A program made the position numbers and the translations under genes. From Pseudarthrobacter sp. AL07 (GTDB taxonomy: Bacteria; Actinomycetota; Actinomycetes; Actinomycetales; Micrococcaceae), in the NCBI RefSeq assembly GCF_029960665.1, contig NZ_JASBRB010000002.1:124001-188000 (forward strand): 64,000 bases of DNA, written 5' to 3'. The notes under the pieces were generated by a model. The model was not told the origin of the DNA, made no database searches, and saw only the letters and a list, made by a program, of their open reading frames with translations. The stretch's first letter is position 1. Each line of letters starts with the position of its first letter. Positions 22,322-40,100 of the stretch are shown piece by piece.

Positions 22322-23022
22322 CCTTCGTCCACGCCCCTCATCTTTTCCAGTAAGTACAAATCGTCGGGCGTGACCAGGTGGGACGTGACGGCGTGCTCGA
22401 CGAGCCTCGCGCGCCGGTTGGTGGCCAGTTTCCCGCCGCCGCCGCGCAGGCCCACCACGCCCACGCGGTCAAGTTTGTCGCAGACGTTATCCAGCTTCCG
22501 GTTGAACCGGGTGAGTGCCCAGCCCAGGGTCTTGGCCGCTGCTGCCGAGGACGGGATGGCGCTGAACCCGGTCCCTTCGCGCCGGAGCATGGGTTCGGCG
22601 AGAGCTACGATGAGGGCCCGTTGGGAGTCGGTGAAGACCACGGGGCCGATGGTGGTGTCGCCGTTACTGTCGTCCTCCCGTGATTCCTGGCGGAACGACG
22701 GCGTCTTGAGGTGGACGGCGAACTCATATGTGGTGGGCCCGGCGGTGAAAATGACGTTTGTGTGGCTGAACACCAGCGGGATGCGCGCACCCGGCGACAG
22801 CCAGGCCTGCATCCCGCCGGAACCGTCCGCAACCGTGGCGGAGAGCATCCCGCCCACGTTGCTTAGCCACCAGATCCCGTCGTAGCGGGCCACTTGCAGG
22901 AACTGGCGGTGAAGGTACGGGTTGTCGTCCACTTCCAGGTCGCCTTCTCGGCCGATGTTGAAGATTTCCTCATCGGACGGTTCGTACCACTCACCACAGA
23001 AATCTATTGCTAGATCCCCCAT
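22318..23022 (-). CDS. FHA-like and helix-turn-helix protein of the operon
   Basis: Protein of 234 residues. The first 110 residues resemble a divergent FHA domain: FNIGREGDLEVDDNPYLHRQFLQV keeps the G-R and the R/H of the phospho-Thr loop region, and WWLSNVGG stands at the place of the N-G motif. The second half, from FTDSQRALIVALAEPML on, is helical with KTLGWALTRFNRKLDNVCDKLDRVGVVGL, which looks like a winged helix-turn-helix found in regulators. It could read the phosphorylation state set by the kinase and the phosphatase of the same operon and act on DNA or on the FtsK-like protein; this is inference. The stop overlaps the start of the FtsK-like gene (ATGA). A 61-bp gap separates it from the kinase gene. 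Confidence 0.7.
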   Translation of the reverse strand: MGDLAIDFCGEWYEPSDEEIFNIGREGDLEVDDNPYLHRQFLQVARYDGIWWLSNVGGMLSATVADGSGGMQAWLSPGARIPLVFSHTNVIFTAGPTTYEFAVHLKTPSFRQESREDDSNGDTTIGPVVFTDSQRALIVALAEPMLRREGTGFSAIPSSAAAAKTLGWALTRFNRKLDNVCDKLDRVGVVGLRGGGGKLATNRRARLVEHAVTSHLVTPDDLYLLEKMRGVDEG

Positions 23023-23083: not shown

Positions 23084-24925
23084 TCACTTGCGGGTGCAGG
23101 CGATCGAGTCTTCTTCCAACGGTGAGAACGCGCCGTCGCTCCTGACGATCATCACCTGGATACAGGTGGATTCCGTCGGATTCAGCGCAACCTGGGCGGT
23201 TGGCTCGGCAGTGGACTGGTACCCGCCGTTGTTGCCTAATGCGTAGACCCGCCACTTATAGGCGTCGCCCGACTTCGGCTGCGGATTAGTCCACGTGAAC
23301 GTCGCCTTGCCGGTAGCGTCCACAGTTCCCGCCAGGTTGGCGACGTCGGGAACTGTCCCGTTGTCGAGGGCATCCGCAGGAGGTTTGCTGACTCGGGCGG
23401 TCTCTTTGACCTTCGGTGCCTGAACTGAGGACGCCAGCACAATTCCGACAATGATGGCGAGGACCAGCAGCGTTCCGCCCGCAGCGGCAAGCCACACGTT
23501 GCGCTTGCCGTGGTCGGGTGCCGCCTTGGGGGCGGGTTCGGCGACCGGGGCGGGACGGCTGATCGTCGCGTCAATCTCGGGCCCGCCCCCCGCCGCCCGG
23601 TGGCCGGGGGCGCCCGGCTGGCCGGCCTGCTGTCTTGGCTGGTGGCCGGTTTGTTGGCCAGACTGTGCAGGAAGGAGCCGTGGGCGCTGGACAGTTGCGT
23701 CCGGCACGGACCCGTACCCGGCCGCCGGTTCTTTGCCGCGGAGCATCGTGGCATGCTCCCACTCCCCCGCGGGGCTGCTGCCGTCCTGACTGCCGCCCAC
23801 CCGCGGGCTGTCCTGTTGGCCGGCAAAGAGCTTGCCCGGAACCTGGGGCCCAGGTCCTGCCGGGGCCCCAGGTTCCGGGGGGAACCCGTCACGTGGAATG
23901 CCCGACGGCGGCGCACCGGTTCCGGGGCCTTGCGGCCGGGTGCGTGCCGGGAAAGTAGGGGCACTGCCGGTCTGCTCCGGATCGATGGCCGCGATGCTCC
24001 GGACGCGGGTTTCCTCGAAGCCGTCATCGGGGTGGTTTTCTTCGACTTGCTGCTCTTCGAGTACCTCGAACGGCGTGACCGAGAGGTTCAGTTCGGCCTG
24101 GATCCGCTGCAGGGCGAGGGCAAACGCGTGGGCTGAGGAGTACCGGGACGCCGCGGACTTGGCCATTGCCGTGGACAGTGCCCGCTCCAGTGACTCCGGA
24201 ACGTCGGCCCGGCCCAGGCGCGGCAATGCCGCGCTGGTGATCCGCGAGATCAGTTCCCGCTGGGAGTTATCGGTACCGGGCATCACGAACGGAGACCTGC
24301 CGGCCAGCAGTGTGTACAGCGTTGCGCCCAGTGCCCAGACATCCACCATCACGCCGTCCACGGGGCCGTCCGCGAACTGTTCCGGCGGCGACCACGGAAT
24401 GGACATCCCGGCGTCCTCGTCGGCGTCGCCGCCCAGCGTGCCCGAGATCCCGAAGTCCGTCAGGGCCGGCCGGTTGTAGTCGGTCACGAGGATGTTTGCG
24501 GGCTTGATGTCCCGGTGGGCGATGCCGGCCCGGTGCGCGGTCTCGACGGCGGAGGCCACCTGGATGCCGACGGCCAGGACCTCATCAACGCTGAAGCGCT
24601 GACGGCGGTACCGGACGTCCAGGCTGGGCCTGGAGCAGTACTCCATGGCCAGGTAGGAGTGGCCGGCCTCGGTCACCTCGGCCTCGAAGATGGTCACGAT
24701 GTAAGGGTGGGAGGAGAGCTGGGCCATCAGGTTGGCCTCGGACTCGAACCTGCGCCGGGCACCCTCGGTCTTCAGGTCCGACAGAAGGACCTTGACCGCC
24801 ACCTTCCGGCGCGGCCGGTCCTGTTCGTAGAGGTAGACGTCGGAGAACCCGCCGGAGCCGAGCAGGCTGATGTACGTAAACCCCGGGATGGGGGGCGGCG
24901 GCGCAACAGGCCGTTTGGAACTCAA
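23084..24925 (-). CDS. transmembrane Ser/Thr protein kinase with fibronectin-like ectodomain
   Basis: Protein of 613 residues. The kinase domain has the Gly loop GSGGFSDVY (residues 23-31), ATP Lys45 in VAVKVLL, HRDIKPAN with catalytic Asp139, and DFG at 157-159; all key residues are present. A long Pro/Gly/Gln-rich linker (about 300-470) leads to one membrane helix (about 476-502) and an extracellular domain of ~110 residues with Fn3-like strands (ATFTWTNPQPKSGDAYKWRVYALG) and two Cys near its end that may pair. PknB-type kinases normally carry PASTA repeats there; these are absent. The start is TTG at 24925, overlapping the FHA gene stop (TTGA) with GGAG upstream. A strong DNA hairpin lies in the linker region (23835-23879). 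Confidence 0.93.
   Translation of the reverse strand: MSSKRPVAPPPPIPGFTYISLLGSGGFSDVYLYEQDRPRRKVAVKVLLSDLKTEGARRRFESEANLMAQLSSHPYIVTIFEAEVTEAGHSYLAMEYCSRPSLDVRYRRQRFSVDEVLAVGIQVASAVETAHRAGIAHRDIKPANILVTDYNRPALTDFGISGTLGGDADEDAGMSIPWSPPEQFADGPVDGVMVDVWALGATLYTLLAGRSPFVMPGTDNSQRELISRITSAALPRLGRADVPESLERALSTAMAKSAASRYSSAHAFALALQRIQAELNLSVTPFEVLEEQQVEENHPDDGFEETRVRSIAAIDPEQTGSAPTFPARTRPQGPGTGAPPSGIPRDGFPPEPGAPAGPGPQVPGKLFAGQQDSPRVGGSQDGSSPAGEWEHATMLRGKEPAAGYGSVPDATVQRPRLLPAQSGQQTGHQPRQQAGQPGAPGHRAAGGGPEIDATISRPAPVAEPAPKAAPDHGKRNVWLAAAGGTLLVLAIIVGIVLASSVQAPKVKETARVSKPPADALDNGTVPDVANLAGTVDATGKATFTWTNPQPKSGDAYKWRVYALGNNGGYQSTAEPTAQVALNPTESTCIQVMIVRSDGAFSPLEEDSIACTRK
23835..23879. repeat. perfect 17-bp inverted repeat inside the kinase linker
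   Basis: CCCGGAACCTGGGGCCC at 23835-23851 pairs without mismatch with 23863-23879 across an 11-base loop. It lies in coding sequence for the Pro/Gly-rich linker. Its GGGGCCC core resembles the intergenic hairpin at 12935-12989. Confidence 0.75.
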
Positions 24926-26778
24926 AGAATCTCCTCAAAACGCAATGAGATATCGTCACCCAATTCGGCGATGTCGCCGTCGAGCAGGATGGCCATCTCG
25001 TTCTGGGCCAGGCGGCGGGGCGGCTGGCCCTCGCGGACCAGGACCGTGCCGTTGGTGGCCTTCAGATCGCAGAGCATCACGTGCCAGCCTTCCAACCGCA
25101 CTTCCACGTGGGAGCGCGAGATGTCGCCGCTGGGGCTGGGCACCTGGACCAACCTCGGCATAACACCTCCGTGGACCCGGGAAACAGAAGGCTGCCGCCC
25201 AATGACCAGAGACTGGTCCAGGTCAACCAGCGCACCCGTCGAGATCCGCATCCGGCCCAGCCGTGGCCGGGACACCTGGACGGCGTCGGCGGGCAGCGGC
25301 GAGCCACAGGCAGCGCACTGCGAATGGGTGGGCGGATTCGCGTGTCCCCGATCGCAAACCCGGGCCAGTACCAGGGGGCCGGCGGCGGCCTCCGGCTCCG
25401 GAACCGGGGCGGGATGTGCGGCCATTCCGGCAAGGTCGCCCTTCATGATCGTGTGGCCATCGTGGTCAGCGTCGAAGGCGTCCGGGTCCACAGCCGACTC
25501 CCCCGCGCGGACTTCTGCCTGCACCTCCGACGGCGGCAGATTCAACGACGGCGGATTGAACGACGGCGGATTGAACGACGGCGGCAGATTCAACGACGGC
25601 GCACTGGACGACGCCGCAGCCTGGGCAGCGGGCGCACTCCCGCTTGTCCGCCACGGGACCGAGTCGATGAGTCCGCCCATCATCCTGGCGGCCGCTGCGG
25701 CGGCAGGCGGGGTGGGAGGTGGGCCTGCCAGTTCGTGGGAAGGCGGGGCGGGGGCGAGGCTGGCGGCTGCGTCCGACTGCCCTGCGGCGTCCCCCTCTGC
25801 CGCATCCACCGGTGCCGGAGCCGCGTCGACCGGTGCCGCAGCAGCGCTGTGATCGTCGTCTTCGGGGTCGTCGCGGACGGCTGCGTCCTCGATGCGGCGG
25901 ACAACAGTCCTCTCCCAGAGGTGGTCGTAGCTGCCGGTCATTTCGTGGGCCGGGACCTGATCCGGATGGGCGGTGGGCTCCGGTTCCGGCTCGGGTTCAA
26001 GGTCCGTATGGGTCTCCGGCGCTTCAGCCGCAAAATTGGAGTCCTCGTCCATAAGCCCCATCACCGTCTCGGCCGAGACCTCCCGGTCGTGTTCCGGCTC
26101 CGCCGCCGATTCGGGTTCAGACGCCAGTTCATGTTCCGAAGCCGGTTCGGGTTCCGGCTGCGCTTCCAGTTCAGTTACCGGCACTGATTCGGATGAAGGC
26201 TCCGCGTCAGTTTCAGGGACCAGTTCAGTTTCAGGGGCCGGGCCGGCGTCCGCCACGAGGACGACGGCGCCGATAAGGGTGGGTGCCCCAGCTTCAGCGG
26301 GGGTGGCCGAAAGGGAAACCACCTCGTCCGCCGGGGCTCCGGCGAGAGACACCGTCAGCGACTCCAGCAGGACCACGCCTTCGCTGAGCGGCAACACGGG
26401 TCCGGGATGGCTGTCCCCGGCTACAGTGAGGCGGTACCACTCGGGTGTGTCCAAGCGGCGCTCCGTCCAGGTGGTGACGTCCCGCCCGTTCAGGTCCACG
26501 GGGCCGCCGGGCAGCTGCACGGTCAGGTCCAGGTCGCCGCGGAGGAAGATCCTGAGCGCGTCACCGGAATCGACTATCCCGAAGGACGGTATCTGCGCCA
26601 GGGAAACGCCGAAGCTGCTGGTGACCGCGTGGAGCACCTCGTGGACTTCCGGAGCGCCCTCCAGCAGTTCCCACAGGGACTGGACCAAGGCCGGCGGGGT
26701 CCCGGGCCCCAGGAGGACCACAGTGTTGGCCCGGACAACGCCGAGCCAGGTGCCCGCGGTGTACGTTGCGGTTGGCAT
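24922..26778 (-). CDS. zinc-ribbon and FHA-domain protein
   Basis: Protein of 618 residues. It begins with about 180 residues of beta-rich sequence (TATYTAGTWLGVVRANTVVLL, PGGPVDLNGRDV), then a long low-complexity acidic and Pro/Ala-rich middle (repeated EPEPEP, ASEPES), a Cys4 zinc ribbon (CDRGHANPPTHSQCAAC), and a C-terminal FHA domain (LVIGRQPSV, GDISRSHVEV, DLKATNGTVL). FHA domains bind phospho-threonine, so this is a likely substrate or reader of the kinase encoded next, with which it overlaps by 4 bases. The ATG at 26778 follows GGAGGGG and lies 1 base after the phosphatase stop; a longer frame upstream has no ribosome site. Confidence 0.88.
   Translation of the reverse strand: MPTATYTAGTWLGVVRANTVVLLGPGTPPALVQSLWELLEGAPEVHEVLHAVTSSFGVSLAQIPSFGIVDSGDALRIFLRGDLDLTVQLPGGPVDLNGRDVTTWTERRLDTPEWYRLTVAGDSHPGPVLPLSEGVVLLESLTVSLAGAPADEVVSLSATPAEAGAPTLIGAVVLVADAGPAPETELVPETDAEPSSESVPVTELEAQPEPEPASEHELASEPESAAEPEHDREVSAETVMGLMDEDSNFAAEAPETHTDLEPEPEPEPTAHPDQVPAHEMTGSYDHLWERTVVRRIEDAAVRDDPEDDDHSAAAAPVDAAPAPVDAAEGDAAGQSDAAASLAPAPPSHELAGPPPTPPAAAAAARMMGGLIDSVPWRTSGSAPAAQAAASSSAPSLNLPPSFNPPSFNPPSLNLPPSEVQAEVRAGESAVDPDAFDADHDGHTIMKGDLAGMAAHPAPVPEPEAAAGPLVLARVCDRGHANPPTHSQCAACGSPLPADAVQVSRPRLGRMRISTGALVDLDQSLVIGRQPSVSRVHGGVMPRLVQVPSPSGDISRSHVEVRLEGWHVMLCDLKATNGTVLVREGQPPRRLAQNEMAILLDGDIAELGDDISLRFEEIL
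25529..25609. repeat. short tandem repeats in the FHA-protein linker
   Basis: Five units of 18, 15, 15, 18 and 15 bp, each beginning GACGGCG and mostly ending in AAC, run in tandem. In the minus-strand protein they give SLNLPPSFNPPSFNPP-type units. All units are multiples of three, so copy-number change keeps the frame. Confidence 0.85.
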
Positions 26779-26779
26779 G

Positions 26780-27682
26780 TCAGCGTTCCCCTCCTTCGTC
26801 GTCCTGGCCGGCCGGCCGGCTGGCGTCAACAATCCGTGCCCGGGGCAGGGTGTCCTCCTCTGCCGCATCAGCGGCGCGGCGGGGGGCTGTGGTGGCCAGG
26901 CCGCCGTCGTTCATCACGTTCCTGGCGTCCACCACAATGACGGTGACGTTGTCCCTTCCGCCATTGCGGAGCGCGGCCTGGATCAGGGCATCCACGGCGT
27001 CCTGCGGGTGGCCCACGGTGCTCAGGATCCGGAAAATGTGCTCATCCGTCAGCTCTCCATTGAGCCCGTCCGAACAGACCATGATCCGGTCGCCTTCTTC
27101 AACAGGCAGGAGCCAGTAATCGGCTTCGGTCTCGTCCCCGGTTCCCAGCGCCCTCGTAACCACGTGGCGGCGGGGATGAACGGTGGCCTGCTCAGGCGTG
27201 ATTTCACCGGCATCCACGAGTTCCTGGACCTCCGAGTGGTCCACACTGACCTGCTCGAAGTGCCCTTGGCTCAGCCGGTACGTGCGGGAATCCCCGATGT
27301 TCATGACCAGCCAGTACGGCATGCCCATCTGTTCCACCACAACGGCCCCGGTGAGCGTGGTCCCGGCGCGGGCACCGGTCACCTCCCGGATGGAACTGTC
27401 GGCGCGGAGCAAGTATTGCTGGAGCACCGCCGCCGTGACGCTGCGCTCCCCGGTGGCGAGCTGTGGCATGGCAGCGAGGGCGCGGACGCACATGCCGCTG
27501 GCAATCTCGCCTGCTTCATGTCCGCCCATGCCGTCCGCCACGGCGAAGACGGGGTCGGAGGCGATGAAGGAATCCTCGTTCAATTCCCGGCGCAGCCCGC
27601 GGTCCGTGCCGTAGCCGTAACTCAGGCTGAGGCCGGTTCCGTGGTCTGCGTCAGCTGAGTCACTGGCGGGCTGGGAGTTCAT
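26780..27682 (-). CDS. PP2C-family protein Ser/Thr phosphatase
   Basis: Protein of 300 residues. The PP2C metal-binding motifs are complete: GLRRELNEDSFI (Asp37), FAVADGMGGHEAGE (Asp50 and Gly51), VCSDGLNGELTDEH and GRDNVTVIVVD near the end. It removes phosphate from Ser/Thr residues of proteins and is the natural counterpart of the kinase two genes downstream. There is no membrane segment, so it acts in the cytoplasm. Its ATG overlaps the stop of the RDD/FHA gene by 4 bases and its stop is 1 base before the next start. Confidence 0.95.
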   Translation of the reverse strand: MNSQPASDSADADHGTGLSLSYGYGTDRGLRRELNEDSFIASDPVFAVADGMGGHEAGEIASGMCVRALAAMPQLATGERSVTAAVLQQYLLRADSSIREVTGARAGTTLTGAVVVEQMGMPYWLVMNIGDSRTYRLSQGHFEQVSVDHSEVQELVDAGEITPEQATVHPRRHVVTRALGTGDETEADYWLLPVEEGDRIMVCSDGLNGELTDEHIFRILSTVGHPQDAVDALIQAALRNGGRDNVTVIVVDARNVMNDGGLATTAPRRAADAAEEDTLPRARIVDASRPAGQDDEGGER

Positions 27683-29157
27683 GCCTGTCCTAGGTGGAAG
27701 GAACGGTCACCAAAGTGGACAGTGGCTCCCGGGCTGACAAAGATGGGTACACCCGGCTGCAGCGGCGTGCGCCGGCCGTCCGGCGTGGTGACGGCGCTGC
27801 CGTTGGTGGAATTTCGGTCCGTCACCCAGATGCCGGCGCCGTCGGTCAGCAGGTGGAGGTGTGTCTTGGAGATCGAGCGGCCGGGATCGTTGACTGCCAG
27901 CAACTGGGCCTGCTGCTCCCCCGCCTGGCCCAGGGGGTTCCGGCCCAACAGGACGTTGCGGTCGAGCTGGAAGTCCCGGCCGTCGTCGAGCTTTATCCGC
28001 AGCACGGCGACGGGCGCCGCATACGTTGCGCCGCCGCGCATCTGCGTACGGTCGAGGTCGTCATCGGGATGGGTCCGGGTGGCCGGCGCGGGAACCGCCG
28101 GGGCTGCAGTCTGCGCCTGCGGCGCCTGAAAAGGAGCGGACGACGGCGGCGCGTACGGCTGGGGTGCGAAGGACGGCTGTGCGGACCGCTGCACGGGTTG
28201 TTGGGCCGGCGGCTGCCATGCCTGCACCGATGGCTGGGCCACGGCCGCCTGGGCGTTCACGACCTGGGGCGGCTTTGCGGCCCCAGCGACTGGCGAGGCG
28301 ACCTGCTGGACAGGAGGGAGGTCCAGGGGCGCGAAACTGTACGGTCCCTGGATGCCGCCGGAGGTAATGGGGTTGCGGCCGTCCTTGACGTCGAACACCA
28401 GTGTTTTGGCGGCGGTGTCATGCCAGCCACGGAGCCTGCCGTCGCGGTCCCAGGTGTTGGAAACCACCACAAGTACGGCCCACACGGCGCCGATCAACAG
28501 CAGCGGGCCGAGGATGAAGACGGCCACATCGAACCATTTGAAGATGACGACGGCCACGGCGGCCAGGAGCGTCAGGATGATGCCTGCGCCGGTGATGAGG
28601 CCGCGCAGGAACACTCCCCCTGCGCCGGGGGCGTAACCATCCTTGTCAGCGCTGCGGATGCCCATGACGTGGTTGCCGAGGGTCTTCCCGGAGCGGCCTT
28701 CCATGCCCACCAGGACCGCCAGATAGACCAGTGTCAGCCCCAGGCCGATGCTGCCGAACAGGACCAGCGATCGGGTGTCGTAGATGATGAAGCCGCCGCT
28801 TTGGGTGCGGGTGATTCCCGCGAACCCGATGGCGAAAGTCACCACCAGGACCGCGACGGGGGCCAGCCAGTCGAGCACCGCTGCGCCGAGCCTTTTCCCT
28901 GCTGTCGCCGGAACAAGCTCAAGATTGGCTGCCATTCCCGTTCCTCCCCCTGGAGCCGTTTGTACTACCGGGATAGTACCGGGATTCTGGCTGGCGTGCG
29001 CCGCCGCACGCTCCATCATGGCCCGCTGTGCATGGTCCACGTTGCGTCCGCTGCGTGCCGCCCTGTTGGGAAGCGGAGCACCGCACGCCGGACAGAATGT
29101 GGCGCCGCGCCGGATCAGTTGCTGGCACCGCTGGCAGCGCTGGGCCTCGTTCATCAT
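27679..29157 (-). CDS. RDD-family membrane protein with zinc ribbon and FHA domain
   Basis: Protein of 492 residues. Order: N-terminal Cys4 zinc ribbon (CQRCQQLIRRGATFCPAC), an RDD membrane domain with about four helices (GKRLGAAVLDWLAPVAVLVVTFAIG, and GKTLGNHVMGIRS), a long Pro/Gln/Ala-rich linker, and a C-terminal FHA domain (LLGRNPLG, RSISKTHLHL, DRNSTNGSAV). This would place a phospho-Thr reader on the inner face of the membrane. The RDD part is of unknown transport or scaffold role. The first ATG overlaps the stop of the transglutaminase-like gene. Confidence 0.9.
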   Translation of the reverse strand: MMNEAQRCQRCQQLIRRGATFCPACGAPLPNRAARSGRNVDHAQRAMMERAAAHASQNPGTIPVVQTAPGGGTGMAANLELVPATAGKRLGAAVLDWLAPVAVLVVTFAIGFAGITRTQSGGFIIYDTRSLVLFGSIGLGLTLVYLAVLVGMEGRSGKTLGNHVMGIRSADKDGYAPGAGGVFLRGLITGAGIILTLLAAVAVVIFKWFDVAVFILGPLLLIGAVWAVLVVVSNTWDRDGRLRGWHDTAAKTLVFDVKDGRNPITSGGIQGPYSFAPLDLPPVQQVASPVAGAAKPPQVVNAQAAVAQPSVQAWQPPAQQPVQRSAQPSFAPQPYAPPSSAPFQAPQAQTAAPAVPAPATRTHPDDDLDRTQMRGGATYAAPVAVLRIKLDDGRDFQLDRNVLLGRNPLGQAGEQQAQLLAVNDPGRSISKTHLHLLTDGAGIWVTDRNSTNGSAVTTPDGRRTPLQPGVPIFVSPGATVHFGDRSFHLGQA

Positions 29158-31757
29158 GATTCAGTGGAGTTCTTCCTGCCAGGGTTCCGCATAACGGTGG
29201 ACTCATCAGGCTCGGAAGCCGCCGCCGTCCCGGGTCCGCTGTCCTGAACTGCCGGATTCGGGGTTCCGGCACCGTCCGGGCCGGTCCCCACCCTACCGGT
29301 GGCGGACCGCCATCCGGGGGAACCCTGGCCGGACGGACGCACCAGCGGGCCCAGCCCGAGCCTGGCGCCACGCAGCTTAAGGGCATTGCGGCCATCAGCC
29401 AGCAGTGACCGGGGCGAGAAGCGGGCCTGCTGGCGCCGCCAGAACCCTACAGTTCCGGTCATCTCCTTCAGCGAGCCGTCCACGATGGTCCAGTACTCCC
29501 GGACCTCCTCTTCGCTGGGCTGGCCGGCGCCGAAGATGGAGGCATCCGCGCGGTGCGCGAGCATGGTGGTGGTCTGACCGGTTGCGGGGAACGAGTCAGC
29601 GAGCACCACTGCGCTTTCGCGACGGGTTGCACGCGTGTCAATGCCGGCACCCATGTCCGTAGCGAGGCTCACCACTTCATTCCAGCCGCCTCCTACACGC
29701 TGTGCGGGGTGCCCCTCCGTGAGGCGGGCCTTCCGGCGTCGTGATTTCAGGAGCGCGATCAGCAGCAGCGGCAGCGCCAGGATGGACAGCGGGATCAGGG
29801 CAATGCCCAGGGCCCCCAGCAGGGCACCCCAGAAGAGCCACGGATTATTCTGCTTCTCGTCGGCGTCCAAGGCGTCCGGCGAGGAATCCGGCGGCAGATC
29901 GGCCGGTTCCTGCGGCGGCGGTGGCGGTTGCAGCACCTGCGGCTTGGGTTTGGACTTGTTCTCAGGGTCCGGCGGGATGGGGACATTGTCCTTCGGCGGC
30001 GTGGGGTCGAAGCTGACCCAGCCCACCCGGTCGAACGCCACCTCAACCCACGCGTGGACGTCCTTGCCCGTGATCTTTACCTCACCGGCTCCGTTCTCCG
30101 GGCTGGTCGGATCAGGGTAGAAGCCCATGACCACCCGTGACGGGATCCCCAGGTGGCGGAGCATCAGCGACATGGACACGGCATACTGCTCGTCATCGCC
30201 CAGCATCTGCTTGGCGGTCAGGAGGTTCCTGATCCGCGACGAGCTGTGGCCGGACACACTCGGCAACTGGCCGTCAGCGACCAGGCCGTTGCTGAAGGCA
30301 CCCGTCTTTTGGAAATGTGCCTCAATCTGGCGGACCCGGTCAATGGCGGTCGGCGCATCGGCTGAGAGATCGTTGGCCTGTGACCCCACCACCGGCGGGA
30401 CTTCGACGGCGTCCGGCAGCGTGATCTTCGCGAAGTCGTACTGGGTCAGCTGGCCGTGTTCGAGCTTCACGGGATCGGACACCTGGACGCTGTAGGAATC
30501 GCCCTTGGACAGCCCCTGTGTGGTCACGGCGGTATCGGTGCCCGCATTGAAGTACAGGCCCGACGCCGCGGCAGAGGCGCTCTGGTCAAAGCTCAGGCCG
30601 GTGGTCTTCCGGCCGCCCGGGACAAAGTAGCCCTGGTAGTCCTGGATGGTGACGTCGATGGAGTAGTCATTGGAGGGGACGATGCCCGAGGTGTCGGCCA
30701 GGGTGTTGATGGATTCGGTGTCCCCTACTTTGCTGAAGCTGCCGGAGCCGTTGGGGTCCATGTTGTAGTTGGTGCCGTTGAAGGCATCCAGGGCCCCCAG
30801 CCGGACACGGCCGTCCCGGGGCAGTCCTTTGACCACGAACAGAGTGTCGTCCTTTTTGTCCTTCACGAAGGTCCGGAAGCTTGCGAGGGGGGTGATGTAG
30901 TCCTTGGGATCGAACGGCGGGACCACCACGTTGCGCAGGACCTTGCGGTCACCGCCGGCGGTGACCAGGGGCGCCGCCACCGCCGTAATGGCGACGCTGG
31001 CGGCGATCACGGCGGCTGCGGTGCCCAGCCGGCGGAGCTTGGCCCGCTGGGCTGTGGCGGCATCGGTCTGCGGACGGTTGACTGACACTTTGCGGGTGTC
31101 GCTGCGCCGCAGTGCGTCGCGGCGGAAGGTGGCCCAGGTGATCGCTATGACGGTGAGCCCGATGCCGCGCTCCACCGTGAGGAAGGCGGCGTTGGTGCTG
31201 AAGGCGATGCCCGTGACGAACAGCACCAGCACGGGAAGCAGCGGCCAGTACGGGGTTTTCAGCCGCCAGGTGAGGATGCCGGCCACCAAGGCGGTGAGCA
31301 GCGAACTCAGGAACGGGACGATCAGGACGCCGCCGGCAGATCCCACCGGAACGCCCACCGTGAGCATGTCTTTCCAGGCGAACACCACGCCCAGGAGCAG
31401 GGTCCGCAAGGAGTCGAGGCTGGGAACGAAACCGGCAATCGCCGCGTCCGGGACTGCGAGGAGCGTGCCGAGCACGAGGTAGGCCCCCAGTGCGAGGGCC
31501 GTGGTAATCAGTAACCCCAGGCGCAGGTGCGCGTTGACGGCGGCGATGCCGAGGCCCAGGAGGATGCCGCCGAAGCCCGAGACCAGGTAGAAGGGGTCAC
31601 CGCCGAAGCTGAGGCTGAAGCCCAACAGGCCCAACCCCAGCAGGACGGTGAGGACGCCGGCGTCGAGCACAAAATGCCACACCGGCTGGCCGTCGGCGAA
31701 CGATGATTCGTACTGCCGCTGCTGCGGGCGCGGCCGGAAATCCGGTGCGGAGCTCAT
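29154..31757 (-). CDS. TgpA-like transglutaminase-fold membrane protein, catalytic Cys replaced by Asp
   Basis: Protein of 867 residues. The first ~265 residues hold about seven membrane helices, then a large extracellular part with a transglutaminase-core fold, another helix near 640-670, and a C-terminal cytoplasmic domain of about 190 residues. In the core, the usual G-x-C-E-Q-(F/Y)-A active-site sequence reads GDDEQYAVSMSLMLRHLGIP, so the nucleophile Cys is Asp522 (codon 30192-30194). The His (DVHAWVEV, His568) and Asp (FDPTPP, Asp584) of the triad are kept. It is therefore probably not a cross-linking enzyme but a binding protein. Related proteins in MoxR-DUF58 loci are usual partners of those genes. 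Overlaps both neighbours by 4 bases. Confidence 0.88.
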   Translation of the reverse strand: MSSAPDFRPRPQQRQYESSFADGQPVWHFVLDAGVLTVLLGLGLLGFSLSFGGDPFYLVSGFGGILLGLGIAAVNAHLRLGLLITTALALGAYLVLGTLLAVPDAAIAGFVPSLDSLRTLLLGVVFAWKDMLTVGVPVGSAGGVLIVPFLSSLLTALVAGILTWRLKTPYWPLLPVLVLFVTGIAFSTNAAFLTVERGIGLTVIAITWATFRRDALRRSDTRKVSVNRPQTDAATAQRAKLRRLGTAAAVIAASVAITAVAAPLVTAGGDRKVLRNVVVPPFDPKDYITPLASFRTFVKDKKDDTLFVVKGLPRDGRVRLGALDAFNGTNYNMDPNGSGSFSKVGDTESINTLADTSGIVPSNDYSIDVTIQDYQGYFVPGGRKTTGLSFDQSASAAASGLYFNAGTDTAVTTQGLSKGDSYSVQVSDPVKLEHGQLTQYDFAKITLPDAVEVPPVVGSQANDLSADAPTAIDRVRQIEAHFQKTGAFSNGLVADGQLPSVSGHSSSRIRNLLTAKQMLGDDEQYAVSMSLMLRHLGIPSRVVMGFYPDPTSPENGAGEVKITGKDVHAWVEVAFDRVGWVSFDPTPPKDNVPIPPDPENKSKPKPQVLQPPPPPQEPADLPPDSSPDALDADEKQNNPWLFWGALLGALGIALIPLSILALPLLLIALLKSRRRKARLTEGHPAQRVGGGWNEVVSLATDMGAGIDTRATRRESAVVLADSFPATGQTTTMLAHRADASIFGAGQPSEEEVREYWTIVDGSLKEMTGTVGFWRRQQARFSPRSLLADGRNALKLRGARLGLGPLVRPSGQGSPGWRSATGRVGTGPDGAGTPNPAVQDSGPGTAAASEPDESTVMRNPGRKNSTES

Positions 31758-33085
31758 GCGGCCGCCTTCCTGAGGACGATGGCGAGGTCAGCGAGGTCGC
31801 CGAGCGTCAGCACTGTCAGGTCCGCGATGTTCGCGCGGCCCGGAGCGGCACCGACGTGGAGGCGCACAGCCAGACTCCTGACGCCGAGCGGCACGGAGGC
31901 CGCGGCCGAACGGAGCTGGGCGGGTGTCACATTGCTGCCGACCACAAAAAAGACCAGGGACGCGTTGGGGACCGTGTCGGCCAGGCTCCGGGCGAGGTCG
32001 ACGGCGGTCCGGCGCATGGGTGCCCCGGCGATCCGCGTCATGTCGTCCAGCATGTTCCGCCCGGTTTCGCAGCGCAGCGGCCCCTTTTGGGTCAGGACGT
32101 CCAGTTCGCGCTGTTCCCGGATGGCCTGCCTGCCGATCGAGGCAGCCGCGGAGATGGCCATTTCGAATTCCTGCTCTGACGCGTACTCGTCCGTGTTGAT
32201 GGACAGTGAGATGGCCAGGTGGGCGCGCCGGGTCTCCTCGAACTGGCGCACCATCAGCTTGTTGGTCCGGGCGGTGGTCTTCCAGTGGATGTGCCGCCGG
32301 TCATCGCCCGGTACGTAGTCACGCAGGGCATGGAAGGACACGTCCGCGCTGGACAGGTCAGTGGTGGGCATGCCCTCTAGGTCGCGGATGAATCCGGCGG
32401 CCGAACCGGCCAGGGCCACCGTCTTCGGGTGTACAAACAGGTCCTCCGGTTCCGTCCACAGCACCTGGCGGCGGAGGAGGTGCAGGGGGTCGGCCCGGAC
32501 GGAGCGAACAGGGCCCACCACGATGACGGCGCGGCGGGCGGTTGGAATGGTAAAGAGGTCCTCGTGCACCTGCGCGGGCTTCATCCTGGGCAGGTGGAAG
32601 ACCGCGGTGGCGTTGCCCACCGGCAGTTCCAGGGCGGCCGGCAGCAGAGGCCTGGCCGAGGTGTTGGAGACGGCGATGCTTCCTACCGCACTGTCCCCGA
32701 CGGCCACACGGGTCCGGGCAAGGTCCAGGATCACGCTGTAAGAGGACCGGCCAAGGATGAACCCGATGGCAATCAGGAAAAGGACACACGCCGCGATGGC
32801 CGCAGCTTTGGCCTCTTGCCAACCGAAAGCCTGGCCGGCGGTCCACAGCAGGATGGAGGCAGCCAGAACCGACCAGCCCAGGACACTGACCACCGACAGG
32901 ACCGGCCACACGTAGCGCAGCCACAGGCCACGGACCTTCTCCCACACCGGGGTGAGGGCAAGGGCGGCGGTGCCGGTGGCTTCGGCCCAAACGGATGAGG
33001 GATGCAATCTGGTGGATCTGCCGTTCCGCTGGAAAGATTGACGGAGACGTTCAGCAAGCCGGGTCAACGGAGTGCTGCTGGACAT
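31754..33085 (-). CDS. DUF58 domain-containing membrane protein
   Basis: Protein of 443 residues with two membrane helices near residues 58-105 and a DUF58 domain whose signature is clear (FHALRDYVPGDDRRHIHWKTTAR). The region after it is von-Willebrand-A-like in this family. DUF58 proteins nearly always stand next to a MoxR ATPase and a transglutaminase-like membrane protein, as here, and are thought to be part of an assembly or maturation complex. The stop overlaps the start of the transglutaminase-like gene by 4 bases. Its start is 53 bases after the MoxR gene. Confidence 0.92.
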   Translation of the reverse strand: MSSSTPLTRLAERLRQSFQRNGRSTRLHPSSVWAEATGTAALALTPVWEKVRGLWLRYVWPVLSVVSVLGWSVLAASILLWTAGQAFGWQEAKAAAIAACVLFLIAIGFILGRSSYSVILDLARTRVAVGDSAVGSIAVSNTSARPLLPAALELPVGNATAVFHLPRMKPAQVHEDLFTIPTARRAVIVVGPVRSVRADPLHLLRRQVLWTEPEDLFVHPKTVALAGSAAGFIRDLEGMPTTDLSSADVSFHALRDYVPGDDRRHIHWKTTARTNKLMVRQFEETRRAHLAISLSINTDEYASEQEFEMAISAAASIGRQAIREQRELDVLTQKGPLRCETGRNMLDDMTRIAGAPMRRTAVDLARSLADTVPNASLVFFVVGSNVTPAQLRSAAASVPLGVRSLAVRLHVGAAPGRANIADLTVLTLGDLADLAIVLRKAAA

Positions 33086-33138: not shown

Positions 33139-34110
33139 TCAGACGGCGGCGCGCTGCTGCGGTGCCGCGATGTCGGACAGGACCCGGGCCAATACAGCCT
33201 CGGGGGTGGCGCCGGAGAACTCAGCCTCCGGATCCATCACAAACCGGTGCGTCCATACAACGGCTGCCAGTTCCTTGATGTCGTCCGGCAGGACGAAGTT
33301 CCGTCCCTGCCCCGCGGCCCAGACCTTGGCGGCGCGGACCATGGCGATGGCGCCACGCACGGAAACGCCCAGCCTGGTTTCAGGCGCGCTGCGGGTCTCT
33401 TCGCAGAGCCGGGAAATGTATTCGAGGACCGCCGTGTCCACGTGCACGGTGGCAGCGAGGTCGGCCATGTCCGCCACGGCCTGGGTGGTGATCACCGCGG
33501 AGATCTCTTTCGAGCGGTCCTTCAGGTTCGAGCCGCCGAGCAGCTGGACCGTGGACGCGTGATCCGGATAGCCGATTGAGGTCTTGATCAGGAAGCGGTC
33601 CAGCTGCGCCTCCGGCAGACGGTACGTACCGGCCTGCTCGATCGGGTTCTGGGTGGCCATCACCATAAACGGCCGGCCCGCCTCGTAAGTGACGCCATCC
33701 ACGGTGACCCGGGATTCCTCCATGACCTCCAGCAGCGCCGACTGGGTCTTCGGCGACGCACGGTTGATCTCATCGGCCAGGACGATGTTGTTGAAGATGG
33801 GTCCCTTGTGGAACTCAAACTTCTGCGTTTTCTGGTCGTAGATGGTCACGCCCGTGACGTCCGAGGGCAGGAGGTCGGGGGTGAACTGGATGCGGTTATT
33901 GGACCCCTGGACAGTGGCGGCCATGGCCCTGGCCAGCATGGTCTTGCCGGTGCCGGGAGCGTCCTCGAACAGCACGTGCCCCTCCGCCAGCATCGCGGTG
34001 AAGGTCAGCCGGATGACATGGTCCTTGCCGAGGACCGCCTGTCCCACGTTGGCGACGAGCTTGTCGAAAGTGCCTGCAAACCATTCGGCCTGCTCGGTGG
34101 TCATGGTCAT
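33139..34110 (-). CDS. MoxR-family AAA ATPase
   Basis: Protein of 323 residues. Walker A FEDAPGTGKTMLARA, Walker B IVLADEINRASPKTQSALLEVMEE, and sensor MVMATQNPIEQAGTYRLPEAQLDRF are all intact and match the MoxR subfamily, ring-forming chaperone-like ATPases that act with VWA or DUF58 proteins. I chose the ATG at 34110 (MTMTTEQ), with AAAGGA eight bases before it; the longer open frame to 34224 overlaps the preceding gene and lacks a ribosome site. It is the second gene of the operon, 80 bases after the large surface-protein gene. Confidence 0.94.
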   Translation of the reverse strand: MTMTTEQAEWFAGTFDKLVANVGQAVLGKDHVIRLTFTAMLAEGHVLFEDAPGTGKTMLARAMAATVQGSNNRIQFTPDLLPSDVTGVTIYDQKTQKFEFHKGPIFNNIVLADEINRASPKTQSALLEVMEESRVTVDGVTYEAGRPFMVMATQNPIEQAGTYRLPEAQLDRFLIKTSIGYPDHASTVQLLGGSNLKDRSKEISAVITTQAVADMADLAATVHVDTAVLEYISRLCEETRSAPETRLGVSVRGAIAMVRAAKVWAAGQGRNFVLPDDIKELAAVVWTHRFVMDPEAEFSGATPEAVLARVLSDIAAPQQRAAV

Positions 34111-34190
34111 GAAGGAAGTCCTTTTCAATATTTGGTGCTGGTTGGTAGGGCCGGGAGCCCCTGCGCTGTGTTGGTGCGGGCGGTATTGCG

Positions 34191-37100
34191 CTAACGGTTG
34201 GGCATTCCGTTCGGCGGGTTGCAACCCAGGTTGGACGTGTCGCAGCGGAGCCAGTTGCCAGCGGCCATGCCGCTGGTCAGGTGGTACCAGATGCCCGTCG
34301 GGTTGTTCGACGTCTTGTACCAGACCTGGTAGCGGTCCGATTGTGAGGCGGCGCCGGCGTCAAGCCACTTGCCTTCACCGTTGCACTGTGACGGGTTACC
34401 GGCGACGAAGCTGTCGGTACCCTTGCGCGGTTCGGTGCAACTTCGTACGGGTGACGCCGTGATGGACCACGACGTGGGCGGCGGTGGTGTGGGGTCCGCT
34501 CCGGAACGCGAGTTCGCCTGGCCGGCAGGACCCACTGCAGCAGTGACGGCACGGACTTTGAGGGTTCGGACCTGGTCCCAGCCACCGGCCGGACGGTCGT
34601 AGCGGTTTGCCAGGCCAACACTGGTCCAGGCGCCGCCTTCGTAGCTGATCTCGAAGTGATCCAAAGGGCGCCCATTGACGGCCGGGTTGTTCCAGGTCCA
34701 GTGAACGTCACCGTCACCCTTAGCCGAGGTCTTTCCGTCAACGTTGGGTGCGTTCGGCGGTCCGTATGGATTGCCCGTCCCGATGGACTTGGCGTCGCCG
34801 GCGACGTTGTTCTTGGTGGACGTGGCGATAATCGTGACCGTAATGTCCCGGCCATTGGTAAGTCCTCCGATGGTCCCACCGCCGGCGGCGATACTTCCCG
34901 ACTTGCCGTCCGCGTTGTAACTGTACTGGATCTCCGTCTCCGTTGATCCGTTCCGCTGAGCCTGCGTCAGCGACGTAAACGTCACCCGGAGCTGGCCGCT
35001 GGTACCGGTGTCAGCCACTGTCCCGCTGCTCACCTGGCCGGGTTTTCCCGCGGCCCGGATGGCTGCGGATGGGGCACTGGTCCCGCTGGTTCCGGCCTTG
35101 TTGGTGGCGGAGACGGTGAAGGTGTAGTTGGTCTCGGAGTTGTCCACGGTGACGTTCTGCGTGGTGCCTGAAGGTACCGGTTGGGTGGCAACCACTGCGC
35201 CGCCCTGCAGGGTGGTGAGGGTGTACGAGGAGATCGCGTCGCCGTTGTTGTTCGGCGCGGTCCAGCTGACCTTGAGCTGGCTTTGCGCGCCCACAGCCCC
35301 AGCCTGCGACGCAGTTGGCGCGGACGGGGTGGCCGGAACACCAGCAGGAACTTCCGCTGCCGAGTACGCGCTCCATTCGGACGGTTCCTCGGCATCATTC
35401 CTGGCCTGGACGCGTACTTTATAGGACACGCCGTTTTGCAGTCCCTTCCAGACGTAGCTGACAGCGGTCAGGTTCTGGATCTGGGCGTTTTGTCCCGCGG
35501 GCGGTGGCGAAATCTCCAGGTCGTAGGACTTGACCGGCGATCCCTTGCTCGCCGGAGCCGCCCAGTTCACCGCAAGCTGCTTGTCGCCAAACTTAAGGGT
35601 CGGCGCCAGGGGTGTATCCGGTTTGACGTCGGGCCTGACCTCCGCCGAGGCAGGCGAACGGTCAGACTCGCCGAACTCGTTGGTGGCCGTCACCTCGAAG
35701 GCGTACTTGGTGTTATTGACCAGCCCGGTGAGGGTGCAGGTATTGGCGGGGCAGTCCTGCCGGAAACCCGCGCCGTATACCGTGTATTTGGTGATGGGTG
35801 AGCCTCGGTCCGCAGGCGCGGTCCAGTTCAAAAGTGCTGTCCGGTCTCCAACGCTCTGGGCCTGCGGGGTGGCCGGTGCCAGCGGCTTGTCCTTGACGGT
35901 GAGCCGGATGCGGGCTGTCGCCTGCCGCGAAGATTCCTCCGTCTTGTCAGCCACTGTGTAGGACACCACCATCGTCCCGGTGAAACCGGGCGCGGGCGTC
36001 ACTACAACTGAATCGCCGGAAACATCCACGTTGCCGCTTCCGGTTTCGGTGCCTGCAGCTATGATCTTCAAGGCAGTTTCGGGGAACGGATTCGAATCGT
36101 TGGCCAGGACCTTTACAGTGACGGGCTTCCCGGCGGCCGCACTGGGTTCAATGTCGTCGTTGGCAATGGGCTTGGGCCGGTTGGAGGCCGTGACGGCCAG
36201 CTGGAAGGTTGCCGTTGCCTCCAGCCCGCGGGAGTCCTTGGCCTTCACCTGGACCGCACCGGTAGTGCCGGTAGCAGTGGCGCCGTCCACGGACGTCTTG
36301 AGCACCTTGCCATCGATCCTGGCGTTGAAGCTGGCCGGGCTGCCGCCGACCAGCTCATACTTCATGTTCTCCAGATCGTCCCTGTCCGGGTCAGAGGTCA
36401 GTTTGCCCAGGTCCAGGTCCGCAGACTCGCCCTTCGGCACGTCAACGTTCGCGCCCAGGAGTTCCGGCGGGTTGTTCCGGTTGGGGTCAGGCAGCACCTT
36501 CGTGCGGATGCTCAGAGTAGATTTCAGCCCGGCAGGATCGTCAACGGCGGTGCCGTCGGTAACCTCAAAGCTCAGCGAGCCCGGGCCCACGTAGTCAACG
36601 CCGGCCGTGTACTTCAGTGCCGTTCCGTCACCGGAAACCGGGTTGCTGCCATTCGAACCGATGAGTTTGATCCGGTCCGTCTGGGTCAACCGCGGCGTGC
36701 GGCCTTCCCGGACCTTAACCCATTCCTTGAGATCAACATTCACGGATTGGCCGGCAATGACCTCAATAACCTCGTCCTTGGCAAGGGTGGGAACCTGCTG
36801 CCCCAGCCCCGGCGCCCAGATGATGGCGGTGGACTTCTGGCCGTCCACGTCCTCGACGGTGTACGGGATCAGCTGCGGCTGTTCGGTCAGGTCCACGAGC
36901 ATGGTCCCGTCGGGTCCCGGGCGTGCGGTGAGTGACTCGGTACTGAGTTTGAGGTTCTCGCCGACACCGTCGGGGTCTTCATCGTTCTTGAGGACCGGCA
37001 CGTCCACGGCAGTTTTTCCCATCGCCTGGGCCGAGGTCACGCGGTCGTCGCGGGCAATGGGTGCCTTGAGCGGAATCTCATTGTCCACCACCACGCGGAT

Positions 37101-40100
37101 GGTTGCTTGGGCGGTGGCATCGCGGTCGTCGGCGATGGTGTAGCGGATGTTGACCGTCCCGGCAGCGCCGGGGGCGGTCAGGATGACGCGGCCGCTGGTC
37201 TTGCTGACGGTGGCCTGGAGGGCGTCATCAGCCTCGATACCGTCTGTGAAGATGCGGATGATGTCGCCGTCAGGATCGGTGTCGTTGCCGGTGGCGTCGA
37301 CGGCAATCTGCCGTCCCGGCCGGACCTTGACCTCGTCATCAACCGGAGTGGGCTTTTGGTTCGTTTCGCCACGCGGGGCGATGCCGACGGTCACGGTTCC
37401 GGTGTTGACGGCACCTTGGCGGTCCACCACCTTGTAGCGGAAGGTGTCGGTTCCGGCGCCGTCGCCGGCTGCGGTGAAGTCGATGAAGTTGCTGCCCACG
37501 GTAGCGGTTCCCATGGCAGGAGTGCTGTCGATCCCGGTCAGCTGCACGGAGTCACCGTCGGGATCGATGCCGTCCAGCGGGACGGGAATGCGCACCGTTC
37601 CCGCGGCAACCACACGGGTGGTCAGATTCTGTGGCTGGGACCGCGAGTTCTCCGCGCCTTCCAAGGGAAGGATGTGGATGGTGACGGCGGCGGCGCTCTT
37701 CTGGCCCTGCGGGTCCACGGCGTTGTAGATGGCGCGCACTGTCTTGGGCTGCGGGCCGGCGATAAAGCGCAGGGTGTTTTCCGAGACGAAGCTCTTGCCG
37801 TCCAGTTCATCCACTGCCTGCGGCAGCACGGGGTCCACACTCAGCTCCAGGCCCTGCGGGTGCGTGTCGTTGTTTAGCACCGGGATGGTGACGACGTCGT
37901 TGACCCGGACGTTCACTTCGTCGGGTTTGGGCTGGGGCGCCTCGACGACGGCGGGAGCCGGGACCGGGACCACTGAGACACTGCCGGTGGCTGACTTCTT
38001 GCCGTTGGACATGGTGTATTCAAAAAGGAACGGATCCTTGGTGCCCAGCACATCGGTGATGCGCAGGACGCTGTGGTCTATCACGCTCACCGAAGCCGTG
38101 GTGTTGTCCGGGAGATTTACGGACTGCAGCACCAGCACGCCGCCGGAAGGATCCGAGTCGTTGGCCAGCGGATCCAGCAGCACGCTGCCTCCGGTGGGCA
38201 TAAGCGCAACGTCATGGACGGCCACGGGGTCACCGGCGTCCTTGCCGGACTCCACGTCAACGCGGATAAGGCCCTGGCTGCTTTGCGGGCCGTTGCTGGC
38301 GATGTAGGTCAGATAGACGGGACCGGGAGTGGTGCTGCGGAACGTGAACGTACCGCCGTCGGTGACTGGGCCCAGTTCGGCGGGACCGTTGGCCTCCACC
38401 TGTGCCAGGCGGAGGGCTCCGCCGTTGGGATCGACGTCGTTTTTCAGGGGCGCGATCACCAGGTCCTGGCCCACTACGGCAGTGACGTGATCGGCGTTGA
38501 CCACCGGTGCCAGGGCACCCGGCGGCTGGACGTTCACCACAACTTTGCCGGTGACCGTTGCCCGGCCGTCCCAGATGGTGACTTCTACGTTTTTCTTGCC
38601 GGCGGTGGCCCCGGAGTCCTGGAACGTGAGCAACCCGTCCCGTCGGACTTTGACCTGGTCCTGGTCGTTGTCTGCCTTGGCGTCCAGCAGGACGAGGTCG
38701 TCGCCGTCGGGATCCACCCAGTCGGTGAGGATGTTCTGGCTGACGGTTTTTCCCTGTTCCACCAGCATGGTGGTGGAGTCTCCCCCGCGTTTGAAGACAG
38801 GCGCCTTATTTTCATCCGGTCCCACCACGTTGAGCGTGACCTGTCCGCCTGCTGAAAGTCCCCGGCCGTCCGCGGCGTTGTAGCTGAACGTCTCGGCGCC
38901 GGGCCGAGCGTCCGCGGGAACGGAGATCTGGAACGCGGTGCCGCCGTAGATGCTCTCCAGCGTTCCGGCTTTGGGCCCTGAATCGCCGACAGCGGCGGTC
39001 AGGACGTCGCCGTCAGGATCCGAATCGTTGTCCAGGACGCTGAGGATGGTGGTCCGCCCCGGACGAACGCCCAGGGTGTCCGGTTTGGTTTCCGGCGGCC
39101 GGTTCGGTTTGGTGCGGTCCGGCAGGACGTTGACGGTGTTGTTGTCCGCCGATTCCTGGTCCTGCTCATCGGATTCGTTCTTCGGGGGAACAACGTCGTC
39201 CCAGTTGTTCACGAGCTGCATGTTCTGGTTCACCAGCCACACATTCCCGGAATTCACATCGTTCAGGACCACCAGATCCCGATTCACCCGGAAAACATAC
39301 GACGGCGACGCACTCGCCTTAGGCACATCAACGTTCTTATCATCAGCATCATTAACACAGTCCCGGACATACCTATTCGCCCCGGACCACGCCGCATGCA
39401 CACACCCGGCCAACTGCACCGGAGCCGCCGGCACACCCTCGCCATCAAAGGCCACCGTCTTCGCCGTCGAACCATCCAACGGCTGCTTCAACAACGCCTT
39501 CTGCGTCGAAACCGCCACAAAATCACTCGCCGGACCACCCTGCTGCAGCTTCGCATCCCGTGCATTATCCAACTGCAACCGCTTACCGCCCGGCAGGAAC
39601 AACTTCCCCGCAGCAGCATCCAACACCACCGGCTTATCCCCCACCACCGTGATCTGCAGGTCCCCTGCACCCTTCAACTCACCCCACGTACTCGAATCAG
39701 CGGACACCACTTCACCATTCACGTCCACCACCGTGACAGTCACCGCACCAGATTTGGGATCGGCACTATAGATCCGGTCATCAGCCCCAACCGCAGAAAC
39801 CAAACCCTCCGAACCCACCATCACAGGCTCAGATGCTTCCTGGTCAAAACCATTAACGGTGGACGGCGACACGGCCCAAACCTTGCCTGATGCCGGGTCC
39901 GTCACGGAGATCACGCTCGCACCGAAGCTCACCTCCGCCGAACCCGGCAGCTGCTTGTCCCCGCCCAGACGCATGTTCGCAGGAGAAACCTGGTTCAACG
40001 TCGAACCCGTCTCATCATCCACAAACACATCCCCGGCATTCTGGAGAATATCGAAAGTGGTACTCGCCGGCGTCACCGCACCATCCAACACACGCGAGGG

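Follow-up and report, generated by a model that had tools for sequence, protein, structure and literature searches.

Does a transglutaminase homologue that has no catalytic cysteine still work as an enzyme, or has it become a non-catalytic part of its operon? The question is raised by a gene in the window, the whole 64,000-nucleotide stretch of Pseudarthrobacter sp. AL07 DNA that was analysed. MoxR and DUF58 genes adjoin actinobacterial TgpA-type genes, and the same arrangement was found at this locus. Judging from the residues at and around the active site, the family to which the encoded protein belongs is very probably a catalytically dead TgpA-type transglutaminase, i.e., a pseudoenzyme.

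Replacement of the active-site cysteine

Transglut_core (PF01841) was the sole Pfam domain detected in the 867-aa protein (residues 461-585, E = 1.1e-19); the score of 71.1 bits against a cut-off of 23 placed the protein within the superfamily. The topology predicted from the model and the sequence consisted of N-terminal membrane helices, an extracytoplasmic transglutaminase-fold domain, a Pro-rich linker, a membrane helix and a helical C-terminal domain. On the minus strand, positions 30200-30180 read GGC GAT GAC GAG CAG TAT GCC, which translates to G-D-D-E-Q-Y-A, showing that Asp522 is the codon at 30192-30194. When the protein was aligned by hhalign with six canonical TgpA-type proteins, D522 was paired with their Cys (probability 100). 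The DNA and the profile alignment thus confirmed the sequence-only reading, which had placed Asp522 where the Cys nucleophile was expected. In active transglutaminases and papain-like cysteine enzymes the core helix begins with the nucleophilic Cys, and Asp522 occupied that place here. Among the 45 close orthologues, codon 522 was GAC in 39 and GAT in 6, a silent change only. None of the 867 residues was Cys, indicating that an alternative Cys nucleophile is impossible; the candidate of another Cys elsewhere in the domain, by which the earlier claim might have fallen, was therefore ruled out.

Survey of the active-site residues in relatives

The named loci were the best 80 of at least 533 confirmed matches and came from Arthrobacter, Pseudarthrobacter, Paenarthrobacter, Sinomonas, Citricoccus, Micrococcus, Kocuria, Zhihengliuella, Tersicoccus, Agreia and one Renibacterium bin. 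The core rows comprised 126 non-redundant full-length-type relatives; in addition to the named loci they represented 15 coded families, with members sampled across the order and the phylum from match lists. The 27 canonical TgpA-type rows were drawn from the same non-redundant set. The full-type protein was present in 80 of 101 genus genomes, as counted from the best E-values; only weaker matches were obtained in the remaining 21.

Position 522 was Asp in every one of the 80 named loci (best 80 of at least 533). In the 126 core rows it was D in 79, A in 14, E in 13, S in 10, G in 8 and Q in 2, and C was found in none. Homologues had been proposed as a check on whether the Cys is regularly replaced; it was, in 80/80 named loci (best of at least 533) and 126/126 core rows, and none of the locus-type homologues examined had Cys. 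At the three triad positions, the named loci (again the best 80 of at least 533) had D in 80, H in 80 and D in 63, respectively, with D-H-D or D-H-N in most of them. In the core rows, the second position was H in 51 of 126 and otherwise T, S, Q, R, A or others, and the third was D in 69, E in 3 and otherwise N, F, Y, T or others. The claim that His568 and Asp584 are kept was therefore correct for the window protein and, as regards His, for all 80 named loci (best 80 of at least 533), but these residues were not constants of the wider family. By comparison, Cys and His were present in 27/27 canonical rows, where the third residue was Glu (18) or Asp (9).

Other residues were almost invariant across the Cys-less family, namely G503, H504, R508, E523, Q524 and W570. 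H504 was found in 65/66 family rows vs 10/26 canonical rows, R508 in 65/66 vs 3/27, and E523 in 66/66 vs 13/27. The invariants common to the Cys-less and canonical rows included G520, R541, W570, E572 and W580.

Gene organization of the locus

The gene row (Table 1) ran in the order Ig/fn3 protein, MoxR, DUF58, transglutaminase homologue, RDD/FHA protein, PP2C, FHA protein, kinase, 234-aa protein and EssC-like ATPase. The short overlaps of the transglutaminase gene with both of its neighbours resembled those of a translationally coupled operon, and the locus is an extended PFNA/T7SSd-like operon.

Table 1. Positions of the genes of the row and of the residues and linker discussed in the text (window coordinates)
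Feature	Position	Strand	Basis or remark
Large surface protein, 2036 aa, bacterial Ig and fn3 domains (TsdI/FN3-like)	34191..40301	-	
MoxR-type AAA+ ATPase	33139..34224 (listed ORF start)	-	Pfam
DUF58 protein	31754..33085	-	Overlaps the transglutaminase homologue by 4 bases
Cys-less TgpA-type transglutaminase homologue, 867 aa	29154..31757	-	ORF, Pfam, profile alignment and model
Codon GAC of Asp522, which replaces the catalytic Cys	30192..30194	-	DNA reading and profile alignment
His568 codon	30054..30056	-	Present in the window protein; 51/126 core rows
Asp584 codon	30006..30008	-	Present in the window protein; D in 69/126 core rows
Pro-rich linker, residues 591-639	29841..29987	-	Lowest dN/dS of the protein, 0.036
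Zinc-ribbon, RDD, FHA protein	27679..29157	-	Overlaps the transglutaminase homologue by 4 bases
PP2C-type phosphatase	26780..27682	-	Pfam
FHA protein	24922..26868	-	Pfam
Serine/threonine protein kinase	23084..24925	-	Pfam
234-aa protein	22318..23022	-	Conserved member of the row; unmatched in Pfam and NCBIfam
EssC/EccC-like FtsK ATPase with FHA domain	17876..22321	-	540 bits to TIGR03928, under its cut-off of 778

Among the 80 named loci (best of at least 533), DUF58 was detected in 79, MoxR in 78, the RDD/FHA protein, PP2C, FHA protein and kinase in 77 each, the Ig gene in 76, the 234-aa protein in 75 and EssC in 67, where some of the misses were at contig ends or concerned genes possibly past the flank. 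The gene order was kept in most of these loci (best 80 of at least 533). No Ig gene was detected upstream of the Cys-less protein in three Sinomonas loci. At the locus of Pseudarthrobacter sp. MDT3-9 (L140) the protein was partial, and genes for Ig, MoxR, DUF58, the kinase and the 234-aa protein all went undetected; this locus was broken or misassembled. Elsewhere in the genome of the window, outside the window itself (contig C52:201923-203023), a phosphoketolase match contained one in-frame TAG.

Gene neighbourhood and loss of the cysteine

The Ig gene (>60 bits) was found in 26 of 30 core-family context loci; of the four loci that lacked it, L256, L258 and L282 were at contig edges and L259 was a shortened copy. 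No Ig gene was present in the canonical Cys loci looked at (0/7), and an Ig gene lay near one of four odd Cys-less loci outside the core, on the other strand. On contig C30, near 229,300-234,450, the genome of the window also held a canonical MoxR-DUF58-TgpA locus, the TgpA product of which had TgpA_N and PF01841 domains and the triad C-H-E. Cys-bearing MoxR-DUF58-TgpA loci thus exist, one of them in the same genome, indicating that Cys loss does not track MoxR-DUF58 itself. The suggestion that the Cys is regularly replaced in the MoxR-DUF58 setting held in that the loss was regular, but the loss accompanied the Ig/fn3 gene and not MoxR-DUF58 as such. Nor was it strictly tied to the Ig gene, since four non-core Cys-less relatives were encoded in MoxR-DUF58 loci where no Ig gene lay on the same strand.

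Several loci differed in make-up. At L267 and L268 (genomes G404 and G324), which were MoxR-DUF58 loci without a same-strand Ig gene, the Cys-less transglutaminase had S-A-D and A-A-D, respectively. At L273 and L274 (genomes G234 and G178), also MoxR-DUF58 loci, Ala took the place of Cys while His and Glu were kept, as if these were intermediate; no Ig gene above 60 bits was found at either. Second copies, approximately 49% identical, were present in some genus genomes (L255 and L257, also L256 and L258 at contig edges). The module at L255 and L257 consisted of Ig/fn3, DUF58, the Cys-less transglutaminase and a kinase, and no MoxR, PP2C or EssC gene was detected. In the f4 family, an EssC-like gene was found in 3 of 10 genomes searched (G181, G223 and G237) and short FtsK-domain matches only in the other 7; an obligatory tie to the type VII ATPase was therefore unsupported there. 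The scarcity of EssC in f4, together with the make-up of L255 and L257, indicates that the protein accompanies the Ig/fn3-DUF58 core more than the type VII ATPase.

Phylogeny of the Cys-less family

A tree of 97 rows (70 Cys-less and 27 Cys) was calculated with the three triad columns left out. One branch parted the Cys-less from the Cys rows (bootstrap/SH-aLRT 100/91) and was present in 99% of 200 bootstrap trees; the tree was unrooted, its rows were chosen by similarity to the window protein, and two rows had long branches and eleven an odd letter make-up. Cys is the ancestral state in the transglutaminase superfamily. If this applies here, the single separating branch suggests that the nucleophile was lost once and that the position then drifted. 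In a quick tree of all rows, at least 16 letter changes were counted at the former Cys position, and four rows outside the core fell on the Cys-less side (L071 with S-A-D, L085 with A-A-D, and L228 and L234 with A-H-E).

Conservation of the fold and selection

When the family alignment (A1) was compared by hhalign with that of six canonical actinobacterial TgpA-type proteins (A2), 709 columns were aligned (probability 100, E = 1.7e-55). The alignment covered the whole TgpA-type architecture in one protein, with an N-terminal membrane domain followed by the transglutaminase domain, a further membrane helix and a C-terminal domain, and the two groups were homologous nearly end to end, from the membrane part to the tail. 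The TgpA_N and DUF4129 Pfam models matched the canonical paralogue and were sub-threshold in the window protein. An AlphaFold model, built with 20 sequences, had a mean pLDDT of 75.9 and approximately 90 in most of the core. The extracytoplasmic-domain fold was common to the window protein and TgpA of Pseudomonas aeruginosa (PA2873; PDB 6g49, 6g4h): the model aligned to the TgpA periplasmic domain over 242 residues with a Z of 22.5 and an rmsd of 3.2. The match to protein 4.2 (7uzs) was middling (Z 6.7, rmsd 4.1, 133 residues aligned). Foldseek matches past the transglutaminase folds were efflux pumps and receptors, and these were disregarded for their low probability.

The median dN/dS of the core (451-590) was 0.067 in the 45 close orthologues (Nei-Gojobori). 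It was 0.165 in the N-terminal membrane part, 0.162 in residues 285-450, 0.163 in the tail and 0.138 over the whole protein. The low value in the core indicates that the protein is not decaying. The sequence-only reading had also held that the fold is kept under selection, and this was borne out by the core dN/dS and by the match in fold between the predicted structure and TgpA. The low-complexity Pro-rich linker that follows the transglutaminase domain was the most constrained part of the protein (Table 1). Within it, VLQPP was found in 48/126 core rows vs 0/27 canonical rows. The constrained core and the family-specific near-invariant residues give the picture of an apparently dead active site on a domain that has been kept and partly re-marked.

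Comparison with known systems

TgpA has a conserved triad and was tested in a transglutaminase assay, according to the sections available of its report (PMC3507681). The window family differs from it in having no Cys, and the locus adds Ig/fn3, FHA, PP2C and kinase genes. In the available parts of two reports (PMC8430577, PMC6803598), the bifidobacterial PFNA operon contains kinase, fn3, MoxR, DUF58 and tgm genes plus phosphatase and FHA genes and is proposed to be a sensor of host immune signals; Tgm is a polytopic membrane transglutaminase-like protein, called a transglutaminase or a presumed cysteine protease. The five PFNA genes co-evolve, with MirrorTree correlations of 0.800-0.978 (PMC6803598, in part), which fits a physical complex and does not prove one. 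A mycobacterial review, as far as its text was available, draws a parallel between the moxR operon and PFNA, and it again labels the fifth gene 'transglutaminase' (PMC12067865). No mention of the missing Cys of the PFNA-type homologue was found in the accessible text of the literature searched.

All five PFNA core types (kinase, fn3, MoxR, DUF58 and tgm) were present in the window row. However, the gene order of Bifidobacterium was absent: the kinase gene was downstream and not first, and an EssC-like gene was present. The f4 loci followed the published PFNA order, with the kinase gene before the Ig gene in 5/6 (the sixth ended near the Ig gene), followed by MoxR, DUF58 and the Cys-less protein, and then by PP2C in several loci. 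They encoded Ser at the Cys position, and their gene order suggests that f4 is bifidobacterial; phosphoketolase was no help in assigning f4 to the Bifidobacteriaceae, since all 12 of the 12 genomes searched gave a match. The comparison with PFNA covered operon make-up. The locus also had in common with T7SSd, as presented in the accessible part of PMC11217815, an EssC-like ATPase with an FHA domain, a kinase and a large Ig-like TsdI; in that paper the words 'transglutaminase' and 'MoxR' had 0 occurrences each. No WXG100 (TsdA) gene was found at the window locus; the two in the genome were on contigs C15 and C85, and the window was on C30.

Protein 4.2 (EPB42) has a role in the red-cell membrane skeleton. 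It is an example of the catalytically inactive PF01841 proteins that exist in animals (PMC10318531, in its available sections). As an animal protein of the large TG2-like type it is unlike the window family, and its Cys loss was probably a separate one.

Alternative explanations

A lone mutant or a sequencing error as the source of Asp522 was ruled out: all 80 named loci (best of at least 533) had Asp, the 45 orthologues agreed, and the probability of this explanation is negligible. The protein could instead be a changed enzyme, not a dead one, with new chemistry or metal binding through D522, H568 and D584. All three residues are present in the window protein, D-H-D or D-H-N prevails among the best 80 of at least 533 matches, and in the core rows His was found only where position 522 was Asp (51 D/H, 28 D/non-H, 47 non-D/non-H and 0 non-D/H). 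This distribution is suggestive, but there were too few independent events to accept Asp and His as a coupled functional pair (4 starred pairs, sign-test median p 0.5). Further, all three positions drift across the core (A, E, S, G or Q at the first, T, S, Q or R at the second, F, Y or N at the third) while the fold stays, and we regard a changed enzyme as improbable.

That the window's genome carries a canonical MoxR-DUF58-TgpA locus as well as the Cys-less one would suit a decoy or regulator of an active Cys-bearing TgpA paralogue in the same cell. However, in a search that covered PF01841 among the papain-like families, the Cys-less protein was the only match in 8/11 f4 genomes, which speaks against an active paralogue as its target. 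Of the 101 genus genomes, the 21 in which the full-type protein was missing nevertheless had matches in the range of the canonical protein. Such a role is quite unlikely. A decaying relic under relaxed selection is more unlikely still: although the triad has drifted, the gene is split over frames in a few genomes (e.g., G009, G053 and G096) and one genus copy is shortened (L259), the core dN/dS over the 45 orthologues, the near-invariant family-specific residues and the gene order shared by most of the 80 named loci (best of at least 533) all argue against decay.

Proposed role and significance

The loss of catalysis, as the most credible of these readings, points to a structural or substrate-binding role, as the sequence-only reading had supposed, and it is likely, in general terms, that the protein acts as a scaffold or binds without catalysis. 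Anchored in the membrane, it would serve the module as a non-catalytic scaffold or receptor. The domain outside the cytoplasm may bind a partner in the envelope, for which the large Ig/fn3 protein encoded in the operon is the most plausible candidate, and the cytoplasmic tail may couple the partner-bound state to MoxR and DUF58, with this coupling being controlled by the kinase, phosphatase and FHA proteins of the operon. The Ig/fn3 protein is put forward as the partner from the gene neighbourhood alone and is a tentative choice, with the odds slightly against it. It is a bolder and rather doubtful proposal that the old catalytic cleft has been rebuilt as a ligand site, marked by G503-H504-x3-R508 and G-[DN]-x-E-Q, which would bind the Ig/fn3 protein or, in the manner of a latch, the Pro-rich linker of the protein itself, in an actinobacteria-wide PFNA/T7SSd-like envelope receptor.

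The operon type was known, and so was its published annotation, which assumes an enzyme; what is new is a probable family-wide bacterial pseudo-transglutaminase. If the whole family is dead, PFNA models built on its cross-linking or proteolysis would be wrong, and binding assays, not enzyme assays, would fit. Because of the single-branch split, and because a paralogue that retains the Cys is available within one genome as a natural control, the family would be a clear example of the conversion of an enzyme into a structural or binding component of a MoxR-DUF58 system.
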